Source: a virus
Length of the DNA stretch: 20,963 nt
Virus record (IMG/VR): IMGVR_UViG_3300024431_000029
Span: 1 to 20,963 of that record
Reading direction: 5' to 3' (one strand)
Under the pieces are notes generated by a model. That model worked only from the letters and a program-made list of their open reading frames with translations, was not told the origin of the DNA and searched no databases. Shown here one piece after another: positions 4,072-20,796 of this stretch (position 1 is the first letter of the stretch; every line of letters begins with the position of its first letter). A program made the translations under genes and the position numbers.

Positions 4072-4755
4072 TTAGACCAATTGTGACTCAATCACCGTGC
4101 GTGTGCTACGAAGTTGGGCTCGGACGTGAGCCTCAGACTGGGCTTCGTAGTCTTCCTTGTTGCCCCATTCGACTAGCACATACCCGATAATCTGGGACTT
4201 GCGTGCTTTGGCGTGCCACTTTCTCAGAGGCAGAGCGGCAAAAGCATAGACCGTGCCGTTTTCGAGCAACGACCGAAAGTAACCTTCGGGTTGTTCTGCG
4301 ACCAGACGACCAACAGCTTTGTTGTCTCTCAGCACTGGAACTACGTCCCAGAACAGAGACAATAAGACACTTTGCATCTGCGGAGCCATCGGTTGAGAAC
4401 CTGATCTAAAAGATTCATAGGAAACGGAGAATCGCTTAACGGGGCTACCGTCTAAGTAATCCCCACCATTATGGAATTGACCAACCTGGGCCCGCTCGGC
4501 GTCAAGCACGTTGCGTAACTCATTCAAGACTTCATTGATTTCTTGGTGGTTCTTTCCGTTCGTCAGCAGCGTAGTTGAGTCTTCCCCTAACTGTTCTTCC
4601 CGGGACGTGACATCTTTTCGTTTAGCAGTCCATGTCTTCAATATCTTGATGAAGATACTGATTACTACACCAGCTATGATAGTACCGACTGTCATACCAA
4701 GGTTCAACCACCATTGTTGGCTGATAGCAGCTAATATTAATGTTGTTGTAATCAT
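4072..4755 (-). CDS. Membrane-anchored protein of unknown function in the baseplate block
   Basis: A 227-residue protein. Residues about 18-40 (WLNLGMTVGTIIAGVVISIF and following) form one strong membrane segment, followed by a basic stretch (KTWTAKRK) consistent with a cytoplasmic C-terminal domain by the positive-inside rule. A charged linker then leads to a soluble domain (about residues 70-227) with AQVGQFHNGGDYLDGSPVKR and LPLRKWHAKARKSQIIGYVL. The FHNGG...SVSYE pattern and the alpha/beta layout recall GAF-like sensor domains, but I cannot assign a family. It overlaps the preceding gene by ATGA, so it is probably made late with the baseplate. It could be a holin-related, membrane-docking or signalling protein; none of these is supported by a decisive motif. 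Confidence 0.75.
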   Translation of the reverse strand: MITTTLILAAISQQWWLNLGMTVGTIIAGVVISIFIKILKTWTAKRKDVTSREEQLGEDSTTLLTNGKNHQEINEVLNELRNVLDAERAQVGQFHNGGDYLDGSPVKRFSVSYESFRSGSQPMAPQMQSVLLSLFWDVVPVLRDNKAVGRLVAEQPEGYFRSLLENGTVYAFAALPLRKWHAKARKSQIIGYVLVEWGNKEDYEAQSEAHVRAQLRSTRTVIESQLV

Positions 4756-5894
4756 TGTGGAATGCTTTCACCTTCAAGACCAATCAAAGGAAGACTAGTA
4801 GCCTCAACGACTTCTTCTTCTTCCTCTAACAATTGAACGATTTCTGCTTTGAACTGTTCAGTACCATTTACATTGACAAACAAGAATCTGGAATACAAAT
4901 CTGCTTTCGCCAAACTGGACATGGTCTGTGCAAGACCAAACTTAGTAATGAATTCTAGAGCTTCATTGTAATTCGAATCGTCTATATTAGGTAGGGAATT
5001 TATGGGTCCAACAAGTACGTTTACCGCTGCCAAAATAGCGGTATAAGAAGTTTGTGGTGTCGCAGCAGGATTTCTTGGATCGAATACTGGTAGGGTGACA
5101 GTTACAATGGTAGCGGTCGCTCCAGACGTTACCCCTAGTATACTATCGGTAGCATTGAACTCACCGGCATTCGATTGCGTGATAGTTAGTGTGCTGGTTA
5201 CTGGATCCCATTTACTAACCAGAGCAGTTTCAACCGTTGTCAGATCGTTAACCGTTTCCCCAACAATGAAGTTACCAGCAACTCCACTCAAAGTGAGGGT
5301 AATATTATTGTCGAGGCCACCATTGAGTCGTTCGAAGATACGGAACGAAGCAATCAAGGCCTGGTTCATCAGAATTTCAGCACCACCGAGTAATGTCTGA
5401 AAGATGAAAGAGAAGAAATCTTGTTCCGGTGTGCCTTCTGGTTCGAGACTATTCTTGATTAAGTTGTGTGAGACAGCGACACCTATCAATCCCGGAAACG
5501 ATGGTGGGTTAGCTGCTGCTGGTAGCGTGAAACCACTCACTCGATCTGAGTGAGTTTGATAGTCCAAAATGGAGGTCTTGAGACTATTGAGTGAAGCGAT
5601 GAGTGCTGAGATTTGGGTATTTGAGATGCTACCTGCACCGCCTGGTCCGGGTACACCGAACTGAGTAGGTATTACTTGTCTACCCGGCAAGCCGCCGGTC
5701 AAGGGCGTCAATAGAGCTATCTCGCGGTCAATGCTTGCAACTGCTGTAGTGATAGACGGTCGCACAGGATTGAGAAGTGCTCCATCATCAAATACTAAAG
5801 TAACAACGTCCCGCTCAGCAGGCGTTAGCTCAATTAGTTGCAGGGGTTCTGCCTCTGCAAACTCGGCAACTGGAAATTGAATTATCTCAGCCAT
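4752..5894 (-). CDS. Unassigned virion-type protein downstream of the spike tip
   Basis: A 380-residue protein that I do not recognise. The N-terminal half is helical and carries LTPAERDVVTLVFDDGALLN and VASIDREIALLTPLTGGLPG. The middle (about residues 200-270) is a beta-rich insert, VAGNFIVGETV to TDSILGVTSGATATIVTV, of the kind found in phage fibres and decoration proteins and shared with the structural protein at the left edge. The C-terminus is helical again, with an acidic run (LLEEEEEVVEA) near residue 360. Its ATG follows the PAAR gene's stop by a few bases with AGGA overlapping that stop, and its own stop overlaps the membrane-protein start. Position between PAAR tip and gp25 suggests a baseplate-associated or injected protein; this is inference from context. 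Confidence 0.75.
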   Translation of the reverse strand: MAEIIQFPVAEFAEAEPLQLIELTPAERDVVTLVFDDGALLNPVRPSITTAVASIDREIALLTPLTGGLPGRQVIPTQFGVPGPGGAGSISNTQISALIASLNSLKTSILDYQTHSDRVSGFTLPAAANPPSFPGLIGVAVSHNLIKNSLEPEGTPEQDFFSFIFQTLLGGAEILMNQALIASFRIFERLNGGLDNNITLTLSGVAGNFIVGETVNDLTTVETALVSKWDPVTSTLTITQSNAGEFNATDSILGVTSGATATIVTVTLPVFDPRNPAATPQTSYTAILAAVNVLVGPINSLPNIDDSNYNEALEFITKFGLAQTMSSLAKADLYSRFLFVNVNGTEQFKAEIVQLLEEEEEVVEATSLPLIGLEGESIPQ

Positions 5895-12000: not shown

Positions 12001-12717
12001 ATGGCAGAGAATATTTTTAACAAGATTCAACAGCTTCGCAGCAATACAGGAATTCCAGCCAGAGGCGCAATTGCCCAAGACTGGTTTCGTCAGACTGTTC
12101 GACGACTCTTTGGTGAGCGAGCCATTCGTGGGCGTGAGGAGCTTGTTCAAGCGGACGAAGCCACCACTAGATCACCCCAACAAATCCAAAGTCTGCGGGC
12201 TGGTCGAATGTATATGTTCGTCTACAATCCCAAACTACGAAAGCAACTGCCCGTGTATGATCGTTTTCCAATGATCTTTGTTCTAGAGTTTCGGCGTCAA
12301 GGATTTCTTGGAATCAACCTGCATTACTTGCCCCTCAAACTAAGAGCTGCATTGTTCAACGAACTGACCATCCTCATAAATACCCAAAATCTGAATGAGA
12401 ACACTCGCTTGCGTATCAGCTATCAGATCATCAAAAATGCAACGAAATATCACAGTGCTTTACCACTAGTTCGAGAGTACCTTAATAAGCATATACGGTC
12501 ACGAATGCTTGAGGTTCATTCCCGCGATTGGGAAATTGCTTTATTCCTACCAGCAGAGCAATTCAAGAAGAAGGGTAAGCATACCGTTTGGGCAGAGACA
12601 CGAACAGAAATTAGAGAAGGACCACGCAGACGGGCCCGTGCCGCAAAAGAGCGACGTGAACGCGAGCAGCGTCAACGTCAGGAACGTCTACAGCAAGGTA
12701 CTCAGGAAACCCCATGA
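12001..12717 (+). CDS. Conserved T4-type protein of unknown role with basic coiled-coil tail
   Basis: A 238-residue protein following gp4. The central region MYMFVYNPKLRKQLPVYDRF then FVLEFRRQGFLGINLHYLPL, followed by KLRAALFNELTILIN, looks like a widely shared T4-like phage family (pattern F-x-Y-x-PK...LP-x-YD-x-FP...GFLG-x-NLHYLP) for which I know no certain function. The N-terminus is helical. The last 40 residues (from REGPRRRARAAKERREREQR) are an extremely basic helix that may bind DNA or RNA. Its stop overlaps the next start (ATGA). Between gp4 and the tube-type gene in T4 one would look for head-tail or baseplate factors; a head-completion or DNA-end-protection role is possible but not shown. 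Confidence 0.8.
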   Translation: MAENIFNKIQQLRSNTGIPARGAIAQDWFRQTVRRLFGERAIRGREELVQADEATTRSPQQIQSLRAGRMYMFVYNPKLRKQLPVYDRFPMIFVLEFRRQGFLGINLHYLPLKLRAALFNELTILINTQNLNENTRLRISYQIIKNATKYHSALPLVREYLNKHIRSRMLEVHSRDWEIALFLPAEQFKKKGKHTVWAETRTEIREGPRRRARAAKERREREQRQRQERLQQGTQETP

Positions 12718-13397
12718 CCGGTATCGACGAACTACAAGCTAGAATTGGCAGCTTTGGCGTAACACGACCTAATAGATTTCAGGTCGAGCTGTCCTCACCG
12801 CCGGGTCTTTCCAACTTGATTCCAAGAGATAGAATAGAACGCCTAGCGATTCAATGTGAAGTAGCACAATTGCCAGGTAAGTCATTCTCCACACAAGAAC
12901 AACGTATCTATGGACCTGTTCGCAAGTTTCCATATACTGCAACTTTCACTAGCAATATTGAATTGACATTTCGTATTGGAACCGACTATCTTGAACGTTC
13001 GATTTTCGATGAATGGCAAAATAAGGTTATGAACCGGTCAACTAATATGTTTGGTTACTACAAAGAGTATGTGACCGATATGATTATTCATCAGTTTGAC
13101 ACCGAAGATGAACGTATCTATTCAGTCAAACTTATCGAAGCATGGCCCGAAGCTATTCAACCGATTGAACTGAGTGCCGAAACGACGAATACATATAATA
13201 GACAAACCATCACATTCGCTTTTCGTCAGTGGGAGCAGACTAATGCTCTACCACTGATATTCCCCAGCACGACCTCGACGAAGAAAGCTGAAGGCGGAAA
13301 GATTCTAACGTATTTGACACAAGGTGGATTTGCTTTCTTCGATCAGTTGCCACGCATTACTGGTTCTGGTGGAACTATCTTTGGTAGTATTCTTTAA
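12714..13397 (+). CDS. Tail-tube-fold protein, gp54/gp19 type (tube initiator or tube-like)
   Basis: A 227-residue protein with the tail-tube fold shared by gp19, gp48 and gp54. It opens with TRPNRFQVELSSPPGL, comparable to the ARPNLFQVEI start of gp19, continues with IQCEVAQLPGKSFSTQEQRI and ELTFRIGTDYLERSIFDEWQ, and ends the core with SVKLIEAWPEAIQPIELSAE and TITFAFRQWEQ, equivalent to the last tube strands. T4 gp19 is 163 and gp54 320 residues, so length does not decide. A short C-terminal extension (GGFAFFDQLPRITGSGG) is less typical of gp19. AGGA is well placed before the ATG, which overlaps the previous stop. It probably starts the tube or forms a tube-like ring above gp48. Confidence 0.8.
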   Translation: MTGIDELQARIGSFGVTRPNRFQVELSSPPGLSNLIPRDRIERLAIQCEVAQLPGKSFSTQEQRIYGPVRKFPYTATFTSNIELTFRIGTDYLERSIFDEWQNKVMNRSTNMFGYYKEYVTDMIIHQFDTEDERIYSVKLIEAWPEAIQPIELSAETTNTYNRQTITFAFRQWEQTNALPLIFPSTTSTKKAEGGKILTYLTQGGFAFFDQLPRITGSGGTIFGSIL

Positions 13398-13416: not shown

Positions 13417-14157
13417 ATGACATTACCCACAATCGTCACACCCCGATATACACTTGAGCAGCCGTCTACCGGCAAGCAAATTTCGTTTCGACCTTTTCTG
13501 GTCAAAGAAGAAAAGATTCTTCTCATGGCTCTCGAAAGTGACGATGCTTCAGAAGCGATTCGAGCGACTAAGCAAGTAATTGAAAACTGCTGCGACGACC
13601 TTGGTAATATTGATGATCTTCCAATGTTCGATATCGAATATATTCTCTTGCAGTTACGTTCAAAGTCCGTAGGTGAAGTTGCAGAACCAGTAATCAAATG
13701 TTCAAAGTGCGATGGGGATATCAAATTGAAAATTGATCTCTCGAAAATCGCTGTAACTAAGAACAAAAAGCATACTACTAAAGTTCAGATCACCAATACG
13801 GTTGGTTTGATTATGAAGTATCCAACATATGCAACCCTTCAAAATATTCAAGGTGCTGAAAATCTTACTGCTACAGAGACAATAGACTTGATGTTGAGTT
13901 GTATTGAATTCATCTATGATGATAAGCAACAGCATAAAGCATCTGAGCAAACCTCTACAGAACTTCATGAATTTATAGATCACTTGACGCAAGCTCACTT
14001 TGCAAAGATTCAAGAATTCTTTGATACGATGCCTAGATTAGAGCATACCGTATCATACACCTGCACCAATAAAGTTCGCACCGGCGACACCACTAGTGAA
14101 AAATGTGGTCATAAGGGTAAGGTGGTAATCAATAATTTACAGGATTTTTTCGGGTAA
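13417..14157 (+). CDS. 26: gp26/gp51-family tail assembly protein with zinc-ribbon cysteines (zero-frame product)
   Basis: A 246-residue protein of the T4 baseplate gp26/gp51 family, which acts in assembly of the baseplate hub. Family features are the start PRYTLEQPSTGKQISFRPFL followed by VKEEKILLMALE, then FDIEYILLQLRSKSVGEV, and near the end FFDTMPRLEH. C95-x2-C98 and C216...C230-G-H form a split zinc-ribbon pattern. The reading frame ends NLQDFFG just after a run of six Ts. That run forms a T-TTT-TTC slippery heptamer at 14145-14151, and the -1 frame is open through to the 51-codon ORF at 14184-14339; a frameshift would give a product of about 307 residues. Position immediately before the tape measure is where tail chaperones of the G/GT kind lie. 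Confidence 0.85.
   Translation: MTLPTIVTPRYTLEQPSTGKQISFRPFLVKEEKILLMALESDDASEAIRATKQVIENCCDDLGNIDDLPMFDIEYILLQLRSKSVGEVAEPVIKCSKCDGDIKLKIDLSKIAVTKNKKHTTKVQITNTVGLIMKYPTYATLQNIQGAENLTATETIDLMLSCIEFIYDDKQQHKASEQTSTELHEFIDHLTQAHFAKIQEFFDTMPRLEHTVSYTCTNKVRTGDTTSEKCGHKGKVVINNLQDFFG
14145..14151 (+). promoter_or_regulatory. Candidate -1 ribosomal frameshift site T TTT TTC
   Basis: The last codons of the upstream gene read GAT TTT TTC GGG TAA, giving the canonical slippery pattern X-XXY-YYZ (T TTT TTC) six bases before the CGGGTAA... stop context (stop at 14155-14157). After a one-base slip the frame continues CGG GTA AGT TTC and stays open for 11 codons to the ATG at 14184, then through the 51-codon ORF to the stop at 14337-14339. 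The slip site is very near the zero-frame stop, as in many tail chaperone genes. I see no obvious strong stimulatory hairpin just downstream by eye. Confidence 0.65.
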
Positions 14158-14183
14158 GTTTCTGTCATGATTCCCTAGCCAAT

Positions 14184-14339
14184 ATGTACAAGATGAATTT
14201 CAATTTGATGCAGCACCATAACTATAGTCTCAGCGAATTGGAATGTATGATACCCTGGGAGCGACAAGTCTTTATTAAGATGCTGGCTGACTGGATTGAG
14301 GAAGAGAACGAAAGGTACAAGCAACAAGGTATGAAGTAA
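14184..14339 (+). CDS. Small 51-residue ORF, probably the frameshift-added part of a tail chaperone
   Basis: A 51-codon frame, MYKMNFNLMQHHNYSLSELE then CMIPWERQVFIKMLADWIEE and a charged end ENERYKQQGMK, stopping one base before the tape-measure ATG. The pattern NFNLMQHH...SL-x-E-[LI]-E-x-M-[IL]-PWER is one I associate with short proteins encoded just ahead of the tape measure in T4-like environmental phages. No Shine-Dalgarno precedes its ATG (the upstream bases are TTCCCTAGCCAAT), and it is in exactly the -1 frame relative to the preceding gene with no stop between, so it is more likely made as a C-terminal extension after slippage at 14145-14151 than as a free protein. In lambda and many other phages the T part of GT recruits the tape measure and tube subunits; the same role is inferred here. 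Confidence 0.75.
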   Translation: MYKMNFNLMQHHNYSLSELECMIPWERQVFIKMLADWIEEENERYKQQGMK

Positions 14340-14340
14340 G

Positions 14341-16230
14341 ATGGCTGACGAACTAACACAATCTGGTTTCGATGATACTATCCAAAAACTATCGGCTGAG
14401 ATTGAAGCTGCTGGCGATGGTGTCGAACGCTCTGTCGAGGACCAATCAGAAGTATTAGAACGGATTGTTGCCCGTAGCGTCAAAGCTATAACAACTACCT
14501 TGACCAATTCGACGAGACTGATTGAACAAATTGTTGCGACTCAGGAAACGATCCAAGAGGACGATAAAGAGCAAGACAAAAAAAGTATATTTCTTCTTAC
14601 TAATTTAGGTGTGAGTTTGCGTGGACTTCTTACTCTTGGAGTCAATGCTAAACTTTCGGATACTGAACGCACGCGAGAAGAAAAACGAACAGGCGATGCT
14701 CTGATTGGTGCGTTGACCGAAATTGGTGGTGGTCTAGCATTCCTCAAAAACAAATTGGGCGACTTCCTGAAAATCGTCACAAACCCCCTAACGCTGATAG
14801 GTTCTATTGTTGGTATTGCTATCGGCACGGTAGCGGGGTTCTTTGCTTTCTTCAGCAGAGCCCTCAACATCCCTGCCATACTTCAAGCCATACTCAAACC
14901 AATCCTAGAATTTCTATCTCCTAAATCGCGTGTAGGCAAGGCTGTTAGTGGTATTGCTAAAACTTTAAGTCGAATGATTAGTTCATTCGTAAAGGTGTTC
15001 AGTCGGTTCGGTGCATTCATTCTCAAATCTATTCCGCTTGTTCAAAAGATAGTCAACTTTATAAAACCATTCATTGCATTCGGCAAAGGTCTTGGTAGCC
15101 TTCTAGGTAAGCTCGCTCTACCCTTGACTATTGTAATTAGTATAGTCAAAGCTGTCTTGGGTTTTATGGACGAGTTCAAAAAGACTGGAAGTATTCTTAT
15201 GTCCAGTCTACGAGCCATTGGTGATATTCTAGACTTTCTTTCGTTTGGTGTATTCAATGCAGACCAGCTAAAGAAATTTGTTGGTGAACCTATTCAGAAT
15301 TTCATTGCTGGTATCAAAGAATTGTTTACTGAAGGATTCTCGATAGCAACAATGAATAAGATTATGGAACCGCTTATCAAGTTCATTCTTGCTACCCCTA
15401 ATATTGTGATCGACGCTATGGGAAGGATAACGGCATTCATCGCAGAAAAGTTGGGATTTGAAAACTTTGCTAAGAAGCTAAGATCATTCTTGGCCGACTT
15501 TGATTTGTTCGACCTTATCAATGATGCTGCTCAAGCGATAGGCAATTGGTTCGTATCGCTACCAAGCAAACTCGGTCAGCTAGGTATAATACAAAAAATG
15601 AGTAACAGTCTCGTCAGCATGTTCACTAAGATTACGGATATGATATTCGATTTCGTACTTGCAGTTCTACCAGATTTCGTGCTTTCCAAAGAACTTGAGG
15701 AAGTAAAGCAGGCTCGCAAGATTCGGAAAGACCGGCTCAAGAAAATTACTGCGGTTCAAGCCGAGTTAGGTCTTGCTACTATTAAAGAAGGCGAAGCGGA
15801 ATTACAGCGCCGAGCAGATGTTACAACCGAACAGAAACGGCTTGATGCTATTAAGAAGGCCATTGACACTGGATCCCGTCGCGGCACCGGTCTAACCGGC
15901 AACGAACTAAATGCTTTAGTCGAGAGAGCAGTAACTATATCTGACCGGCTGAAAGCGTTGGATGCCCAGACACCAGTTTCGCTTGAAAAGTTAGCCCTAA
16001 CGCAGGGAGCTGCCTCTGCTCTAGACCTGGCAAATCAAATGGCAGCCAATGCTACCCTGCGTGATAAAGCTAATCGAACAGCACCCGCTGTTTTGCCCAT
16101 TCCTGCTGCGCCGATTATAGCATCTCCTACAAGTTCTGCATCACCGATCATCGCCCCATTATCAATGCGAAATAACGAAAACACGTTTCGCAGAATCATG
16201 CAAAAAGACTTCACGGGAACACAAGGTTAA
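14341..16230 (+). CDS. 29: Tail length tape measure protein (gp29-like)
   Basis: A 629-residue protein, close to T4 gp29 (590 residues), the ruler inside the tail tube that also belongs to the hub. It is mostly helix, with an N-terminal heptad-rich segment (residues 10-80), a long series of hydrophobic/amphipathic helices including membrane-like stretches near 150-172 (TLIGSIVGIAIGTVAGFFAF) and about 258-280 (ALPLTIVISIVKAVLGF), and a charged coiled-coil region after residue 450 (LEEVKQARKIRKDRLKKITA). A Pro/Ala/Ser-rich linker near 580-610 precedes the C-terminus. This composition is typical of tape measures, which enter or span the host membrane during DNA delivery. The ATG follows the 51-codon ORF by one base; only a weak Shine-Dalgarno is visible, so coupling to the preceding ORF is likely. 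Confidence 0.82.
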   Translation: MADELTQSGFDDTIQKLSAEIEAAGDGVERSVEDQSEVLERIVARSVKAITTTLTNSTRLIEQIVATQETIQEDDKEQDKKSIFLLTNLGVSLRGLLTLGVNAKLSDTERTREEKRTGDALIGALTEIGGGLAFLKNKLGDFLKIVTNPLTLIGSIVGIAIGTVAGFFAFFSRALNIPAILQAILKPILEFLSPKSRVGKAVSGIAKTLSRMISSFVKVFSRFGAFILKSIPLVQKIVNFIKPFIAFGKGLGSLLGKLALPLTIVISIVKAVLGFMDEFKKTGSILMSSLRAIGDILDFLSFGVFNADQLKKFVGEPIQNFIAGIKELFTEGFSIATMNKIMEPLIKFILATPNIVIDAMGRITAFIAEKLGFENFAKKLRSFLADFDLFDLINDAAQAIGNWFVSLPSKLGQLGIIQKMSNSLVSMFTKITDMIFDFVLAVLPDFVLSKELEEVKQARKIRKDRLKKITAVQAELGLATIKEGEAELQRRADVTTEQKRLDAIKKAIDTGSRRGTGLTGNELNALVERAVTISDRLKALDAQTPVSLEKLALTQGAASALDLANQMAANATLRDKANRTAPAVLPIPAAPIIASPTSSASPIIAPLSMRNNENTFRRIMQKDFTGTQG

Positions 16231-19454: not shown

Positions 19455-19717
19455 GACGGATCTTCGCACTCACACTTGGTGGAATTGCACCAGGGAACAT
19501 CTTCTGGATTTTTCAAGGCACGCACACTCGCATTACGCAACTCATTATCCGTGAACAGATAACAGGTTGTATTGTGTACATTCCCTTCGTGACGCCCTCG
19601 CATAGCGAAGTAATAGGGATTAGCTGCACGATGCCGGCCTTTGTTCTCGACGGCAAATACATCACCAGTTTCAGTGTCAAACAAACGTCTAACTCTATTT
19701 ACTAAATTTCTTAACAT
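19451..19717 (-). CDS. Unassigned 88-residue protein
   Basis: Unrecognised. The protein begins basic ([20 protein letters not shown]), contains NPYYFAMRGRHEGNVHNTTC and LFTDNELRNASVRALKNPED, and ends with a Cys-rich stretch (PWCNSTKCECEDPS) that could bind a metal or form a disulphide. Its ATG shares a base with the guaC stop (TGATG) and its own stop overlaps the gp33-like start, so it is translated as part of the guaC-33-59 unit. Confidence 0.7.
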   Translation of the reverse strand: MLRNLVNRVRRLFDTETGDVFAVENKGRHRAANPYYFAMRGRHEGNVHNTTCYLFTDNELRNASVRALKNPEDVPWCNSTKCECEDPS

Positions 19718-20775
19718 CAGTCATCCTTCTGGCGGCACACCCGCACGAATGTAGTACACTTGGGTAGCTGCTTCAAGTATTTAGCACCAACGTAAGTGCA
19801 ACACGAACGCAAACCACCCAAAATTTCTTGTAAAGTATCCTTGACCGGTCCTCGGTCAGGGACTTTAATTGTCTTACCTTCAACGGCACGATAGATTGCA
19901 ACCCCACCGTTATGCTTGTCTTGTGCTTCGCGGGAACTCATACCGTAGAATGCTCGACCGTCGAACATTTCCGCAGCACCACCTTCGTCATGGCCAGCAA
20001 GCATACCACCAAGCATCACGAAGTCAGCACCGGCACCGAATGCCTTGCAGATGTCCCCCACTTCTTTGCACCCACCGTCAGACATAACGTAGCCACCCAT
20101 ACCATGAGCGGCATCTGCACACTCAATAACCGCAGAGAGTTGTGGATAACCCACACCCGTCTTGCTGCGAGTTGTGCAAGCTGAGCCCGAACCGATACCA
20201 ACCTTTACAATATCAGCGCCAGCGAAAATCAATGCTTCGGTCATCTCGTCTGTAACAACATTACCTGCAACGATGATTGATTTTGAATAGAGTGTGCGGT
20301 AAAATTTGACTCGTTCAACCAGCTTTTCCATGTAACCGTTTGCAACGTCGATACAAAGTAGATGGGGAAAGAATTCTTGCCAGTCCGGTCCAGGGATAAC
20401 CTCCCGAACACGGGCTGTTACTTCTTGTAGTTTCTGGTAATCTTCATCCTTCACACCAACCGTATAGAACAGATTAGCCCAGCGAGCATAATCTACTTCG
20501 CCGGATGGAACGAAAATATCGAAAAGCTCATCAACGCTATGGTGCTTGTGTAGTGCGGTGGTCATATCAAACTTGGCAAGCTCGGTGGCCATCTCAAACG
20601 TACCGACACCATCCATATTTGCTGCAACGATAGGCACACAAGACCATGTGTTGTGCGAGTGACGCATTTTGAATGTTCGGGCAAGCTCGACCTGACTTCG
20701 ACTCGTAAGCGTAGTTCGCTTCGGTCGGATGAGGACATCGCTAAAATCAAGTTTCAAATCTTGTTCGATTCGCAT
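19717..20775 (-). CDS. guaC: GMP reductase
   Basis: A 352-residue GMP reductase (E. coli GuaC 347). It converts GMP to IMP and ammonia using NADPH, returning guanine nucleotides to the branch point of purine synthesis. I start it at ATG 20775, giving [20 protein letters not shown], which aligns with E. coli [20 protein letters not shown]. Visible landmarks are [37 protein letters not shown], the active loop [20 protein letters not shown] with catalytic C200, [20 protein letters not shown], and [15 protein letters not shown]. There is no CBS insert, and the length and AEGK region favour GuaC over IMP dehydrogenase. The Shine-Dalgarno is weak (TTGGA). It lies just after a tmRNA and heads the co-oriented run with the 88-residue gene, gp33-like gene and gp59. 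It is probably an acquired metabolic gene for nucleotide supply. Confidence 0.95.
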
Positions 20776-20796
20776 AATAAATTCCAAAGGAGGAAA

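Follow-up and report, generated by a model that had tools for sequence, protein, structure and literature searches.

A conserved slippery heptamer in a T4-type viral locus suggests that one gene encodes both the short and the long tail assembly chaperone

The window analysed here is a stretch of virus DNA of 20,963 nucleotides (nt), positions 1-20,963 of IMG/VR record IMGVR_UViG_3300024431_000029. At positions 13417-14339 it carries a gene for a gp26/gp51-family protein (G) that ends close behind the heptamer T TTT TTC and overlaps a segment (T) in the -1 frame. Comparison with relatives makes it very probable that translation slips at this heptamer and yields a GT fusion. The locus is best explained as one gene from which the T4-type tail assembly chaperone (TAC) would be made in two forms, a short TAC-N and a long TAC-NC. 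The locus comprises the following features, including a small internal open reading frame (ORF).

13417-14157, plus strand: G (TAC-N), gp26/gp51-family protein, zero-frame product of 246 amino acids (PF12322, phrog_150 and an AlphaFold2 (AF2) model).
14145-14151, plus strand: slippery heptamer T TTT TTC, read directly, on which two tRNA-Phe would slip -1 onto TTT TTT.
14155-14157, plus strand: zero-frame stop TAA ending the short product, read directly.
14151-14339, plus strand: T segment, 62 codons and a stop read in the -1 frame, predicted C-terminal part of the 307-amino-acid GT (TAC-NC), identified from phrog_634, frame conservation and alignment.
14184-14339, plus strand: 51-codon ORF with an internal ATG that is most likely no start (no Shine-Dalgarno (SD) sequence; conserved residues upstream).

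The zero-frame end of the G gene reads TTA CAG GAT TTT TTC GGG TAA, with the heptamer in phase and one codon ahead of the stop. After a -1 slip the first codon would be CGG (14151-14153), and the 11 codons for RVSFCHDSLAN lead to the ATG at 14184. The -1 frame closes with TAA at 14337-14339, and a single spacer base separates it from the next gene, which begins at 14341. The initial annotation had placed T TTT TTC directly before the stop of the gp26/gp51-family gene, had described the -1 frame as open for 11 codons and in phase with a 51-codon ORF devoid of an SD sequence, and had proposed products of about 246 and 307 residues. Direct reading agrees on each count: no SD sequence precedes ATG 14184, and the frames give predicted sizes of 246 (G) and 307 (GT) amino acids.

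TTTTTTC occurs twice in the window, against 6.5 occurrences expected. Among the 22 predicted window genes, no X XXY YYZ site other than the heptamer at 14145-14151 lies in phase and no more than 30 nt from a stop, and from no other in-phase site of this form does the -1 frame run beyond the end of the gene. Conservation was assessed in 95 loci, comprising the window, 79 IMG/VR contigs (80 were fetched; L049 was excluded as a partial match) and 15 isolate phages. The set includes KVP40, Aeromonas phages Ah1 and 65.2, Stenotrophomonas phage Moby, Acidovorax phage ACP17, Vibrio phage EniLVp02, cyanophages, and Pelagibacter and Methylophilales phages. All 95 loci carry TTTTTT(C/T) in phase, with C in 75 and T in 20. 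No locus has a stop within 50 codons in the -1 frame, whereas each of the other two frames is closed within that distance in all 95. As a rule a single codon separates the heptamer from the zero-frame stop; in 11 loci that stop lies 9-42 nt farther, with the -1 frame still intact. Entropy downstream of the heptamer is periodic in the -1 codon frame, the third positions varying most. Conservation of heptamer and phase across related phages had been proposed beforehand as a check, and both are kept throughout. Relatives whose small ORF is out of this phase, or stands behind a strong SD sequence of its own, would have counted against the proposal, and the comparison brought no such refutation.

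Codon choice at the slip site was compared with that in the rest of the genes. The probability given the amino acids and the pairing with the anti-SD sequence were calculated with one representative per 70% identity group (n=53). While phenylalanine elsewhere in the compared genes is encoded by 672 TTT and 300 TTC codons, the first phenylalanine of the slip site is TTT in all 95 loci. The base before it is always T, though the residue concerned varies (D, S, N or G). Given the amino acids, N-NT TTT has a mean probability of 0.40 per representative and is present in 53 of 53. By this comparison of sequences, codon choice at the FF pair exceeds what the protein requires.

The T segment belongs to the gp51 C-terminal family. 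Its 51-residue part matches phrog_634 (baseplate hub assembly catalyst, i.e. gp51) with E 3.6e-19. A weak second match (E 0.0047) covers positions 245-277 of 282, at the C-terminal end of phrog_150, and suggests that this family includes in-frame fusions. The window ATG is codon 12 of the -1 segment, and the preceding RVSFCHDSLAN aligns with R-I-x-L-x-H-D-S-L-x-N of all relatives. Because these upstream residues are conserved, the 51-codon ORF appears to have a false start, and a product begun at its ATG would therefore lack part of the domain. The earlier proposal that the small ORF is the T part holds in that the -1 segment corresponds to the C-terminal portion of the gp51 family, but not for the 51-codon ORF as a unit, its ATG being most likely a mis-start.

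Alternatively, T could be a separate small protein, either initiated at ATG 14184 or produced when ribosomes re-initiate, coupled to termination at the G stop, with the heptamer a coincidence of FF coding. GenBank does annotate gp51 as a coding sequence of its own for cyanophages, KVP40 and others, and an ATG overlaps or just follows the stop in KVP40, Moby, EniLVp02, S-SSM7, P-SSM2 and S-PM2. In 81 of the 95 loci, however, the first 10 codons of the -1 frame are free of ATG, and in two loci that frame has no ATG at all. The conserved residues ahead of the window ATG and the lack of an SD sequence also count against a separate start, as does T4 gp51, which is a fusion of exactly the G-type and T parts. 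We consider there to be only a slim chance that this explanation is correct. In the 14 loci where an ATG stands at codon 2-4 of the -1 frame, an additional separate short product is possible.

The two T4 proteins provide a natural comparison for the predicted fusion. Both T4 gp26 (208 amino acids) and gp51 (249 amino acids) belong to PF12322, and a stretch of about 48 additional residues in gp51 matches the T family. T4 gp51, as well as JSE gp51, aligns with the predicted fusion across the junction (DVFKLLVN versus DFFRLTLVN). T4 gp26, in contrast, is the PF12322 domain alone; gene 26 ends in GLKEFFELL, with FF encoded as TTC TTT and no slip site. A whole-genome search found PF12322 once in each of 18 isolate genomes (HTVC008M, P-SSM2, KVP40, Ah1 and 14 more) and twice in T4, JSE and four T4-type contigs. 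The single-copy genomes retain the -1 T ORF, whereas the two-copy T4-type genomes have no slip site at gene 26. From this pattern it follows that the long form would come either from a slip in one gene or from a second gene. In one T4-type contig the gp51 gene (L132:1501-2246) has an apparent internal frame break, which may be real or an assembly error, being 746 nt long with stops in the translated frame.

G matches PF12322 (T4_baseplate) over its whole length (E 1.5e-58, 198.5 bits; curated cut-off 24.5) and phrog_150 (baseplate hub) with E 1.3e-61. No relative of solved structure was found by sequence. In the AF2 model of G (predicted local distance difference test score, pLDDT, 91.8), the first 95 residues matched 3FGX, described as a tail assembly chaperone (PMC9603447), using VIA-align (Z 8.0, 85 aligned, 3.9 Å). 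The next match was 2OB9, the HK97 tail assembly chaperone gp13 (Z 7.7, 84 aligned, 4.5 Å; values below Z 8 are to be treated cautiously), and the following chain reached Z 2.1. Plain Foldseek gave weak support (E 0.73). It is unlikely that two known chaperones are the top two matches of this model by chance, and the modelled structure indicates that G has the tail assembly chaperone fold. A model of a T4-type gp51 (pLDDT 81, from 8 sequences only) had no fold match above Z 4.2. The proposal that the gp26/gp51-type protein is the G part of a G/GT-like chaperone is supported by this modelled fold, the invariant heptamer and phase, and the colinearity with T4 gp51.

The alignment of relatives revealed TGGAGGG upstream of the heptamer, with a gap of 10 nt between GGAGG and the heptamer; SD sequences are reported to stimulate -1 shifting from a distance of 9-14 nt (PMC5009743). 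TGGAGGG overlaps a conserved peptide, LEGL, and synonymous codon shuffles were hence used as the control. Pairing with the anti-SD sequence at -6 kcal/mol or better was found in 58% of representatives, compared to 24% expected (the maximum of 100 synonymous shuffles was 34%). The glutamate codon at the SD site is GAG rather than GAA in a ratio of 44:21, versus 463:1756 elsewhere (p = 2e-15).

This element also bears on whether the -1 frame could be reached through slippage of RNA polymerase, not of the ribosome, on the T run. Poly-T is a substrate for such slippage, and a few relatives have 7-8 T. The window, by contrast, has 6 T, a C interrupts the run in 75 of the 95 loci, and bacteria are said to require runs of 9 (PMC5009743). 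An SD-like stimulator at ribosomal spacing fits a ribosomal event, and we regard polymerase slippage as marginally less probable even than a separate T protein. A sequencing or assembly indel that split one gene, although a homopolymer is the usual place for such errors, is refuted by conservation and has a negligible probability, since the same phase recurs in all 95 independent loci, some of them from finished isolate genomes whose zero-frame stops are intact.

Several observations weigh against a frameshifted chaperone in the window. The window has no internal SD sequence 9-14 nt upstream of the heptamer; its best anti-SD energy is -4.1 kcal/mol and in the wrong place, and it has INNLQ where relatives have LEGLQ. 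No downstream stem-loop or pseudoknot was detected, the window sequence folding no better than shuffles (z +0.57 and +1.37), and no consensus pairs were found downstream of the heptamer in 27 relatives. Because the SD-like element is absent and no downstream stem-loop was found, the slip in the window may be of low efficiency. Furthermore, the heptamer test handles shared ancestry only by dereplication at 70% identity, and the adjacent ORF at 14341-16230 is a putative tape measure gene by its position and one annotation.

A group of relatives lacks the canonical heptamer (loci L093, L101, L092, L104-L121, L090 and L097). In Ackermannviridae (Vi01, Kevin, RCIP0012 and 18 contigs) and in vibriophages K351 and K444, the T ORF lies in the -1 frame with conserved residues before any ATG, and ATTTTC, GTTTTC, CTTTTC or CTTTTT stands before the stop in place of the heptamer. 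These phages group in a single, fully supported clade, and PF12322 is present in one copy. They may use a slip at U UUC or re-initiation (TAATG in some).

A tentative evolutionary scenario, which we hold somewhat less probable than its alternatives taken together, would start from a T4-type ancestor with a single frameshifting TAC gene. In the T4 branch a duplication (gp26 plus an in-frame gp51) would have taken the place of the slip. In the marine branch the slip would be retained under an internal SD sequence, lost in the lineage of the window, and Ackermannviridae would make use of the same -1 T ORF via a non-canonical slip or re-initiation. That the slip came first and the duplication later is not proven, because the gp26/gp51 tree is unrooted; its gp51 branch is long.

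Taken together, the comparisons support a model in which most ribosomes would read 13417-14157 to the stop and produce the 246-residue G form, while a minority would slip one base back on T TTT TTC and translate as far as 14339, producing the 307-residue GT. The gp51 C-terminal domain would make up the last 62 residues of GT. If the system works like lambda gpG/gpGT, many copies of G and few of GT would coat the product of the adjacent putative tape measure gene. Tube or hub subunits would be recruited by the T part, and both G and GT would leave before the tail is completed. Heptamer, phase, conservation and family are established here by sequence comparison; from them we infer ribosomal slipping, and homology with lambda and T4 suggests the chaperone function, the G:GT ratio and the binding partners.

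The locus is flanked by the following genes.

12714-13397, plus strand: tail-tube-like protein, the upstream neighbour (PF06841 gp19, E 1.3e-6; phrog_45 tail tube, E 3.1e-39).
14341-16230, plus strand: putative tail tape measure, 629 amino acids, assigned by position.

The small ORF had been said to end one base before the tape measure; the one-base spacing stands, and the name of the downstream gene is a positional assignment. In HTVC008M the gene at the corresponding place bears the annotation 'putative tail tape measure', and relatives have a likewise placed long ORF. The window ORF matched no Pfam family above its cut-off and showed no homology to T4 gp29 by HMMER or BLASTP. In Pelagibacter and Methylophilales phages L001, L095 and L098, one or two extra small ORFs lie between T and the putative tape measure. 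T4-type neighbours in the window include gp6, gp25, gp5, gp53, gp48, gp4, gp2, the tail tube and gp32. Elsewhere in the window, an IMP dehydrogenase/GMP reductase domain protein (19717-20787, minus strand; PF00478, E 2.4e-64) is encoded beside replication genes, and two ORFs between gp25 and a PAAR-like gene (4072-4755 and 4752-5894, both minus strand) have no Pfam match and weak PHROG matches.

TACs of T4-like phages and their poly-T slips have reportedly been described before, and the window locus would be a further member of this known kind. The 2022 article by Vladimirov, Gautam and Davidson (Virology 566:9-15) reportedly stresses, in its title at least, a non-frameshift mechanism, with the short and long forms as separate genes. 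G-T frameshifting had been described as conserved in long-tailed phages 'except T4' (PMC5009743, 2016). In the passages that refer to Vladimirov et al. 2022, the PRFect paper (PMC10885494) cites it for T4-like phages with a short gene and a long fusion gene, and PMC12846349 credits it with the finding that TAC-N genes in T4-like phages carry poly-T slip signals. In the literature searched on T4-like TACs, we found no description of the internal SD element and the copy-number complementarity.

The predicted fusion offers an explanation for gaps in earlier comparisons. Sullivan et al. (2010) reported cyanophage and vibriophage gp51 without the first 200 residues, and Aeh1 without gp51 (PMC3037559). 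The 'missing' gp51 N-terminus in cyanophages and vibriophages would be gp26 itself, joined by the slip. In Ah1 (Cinqassovirus, placed like Aeh1), the T ORF with its heptamer is present and unannotated. GenBank lacks the T/gp51 ORF in ACG-2014d (L094), Ah1 (L089) and 65.2 (L102) because it has no start codon. By extension, hundreds of marine phage records would carry a false gp51 start or leave gp51 unannotated, and the T4 'hub assembly catalyst' gp51 would have to be renamed a long-form tail chaperone. Since one branch would obtain this product through a slip and another from two genes, a direct test of why the ratio matters would become possible.

Among known systems, dnaX has an internal SD stimulator resembling that of the relatives (approximately 10 nt upstream), whereas the window differs in having neither the SD sequence nor a 3′ stem-loop. 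The Vandenendeviridae TAC locus (phage Adele; PMC12846349) is likened to the window by arrangement: it comes from another phage family, and it shares a -1 slip (at GTTTTT), a -1 frame uninterrupted in all genomes and a misannotated downstream ORF. As in lambda gpG/gpGT, the long form would be G plus T (PMC5009743); the slip sequence differs, and efficiency and binding partners have been measured in lambda while the window locus is known from its sequence. The T4-like TACs of Vladimirov et al. 2022, as far as PMC10885494 and PMC12846349 relate them, share the protein family and the pairing of a short with a long TAC, the window differing in its use of one gene with a slip. T4 gp26 and gp51 (baseplate hub and hub assembly catalyst) are encoded by two genes on opposite strands, with no heptamer ending gene 26, yet both belong to PF12322 and gp51 is colinear with the predicted GT through the junction.
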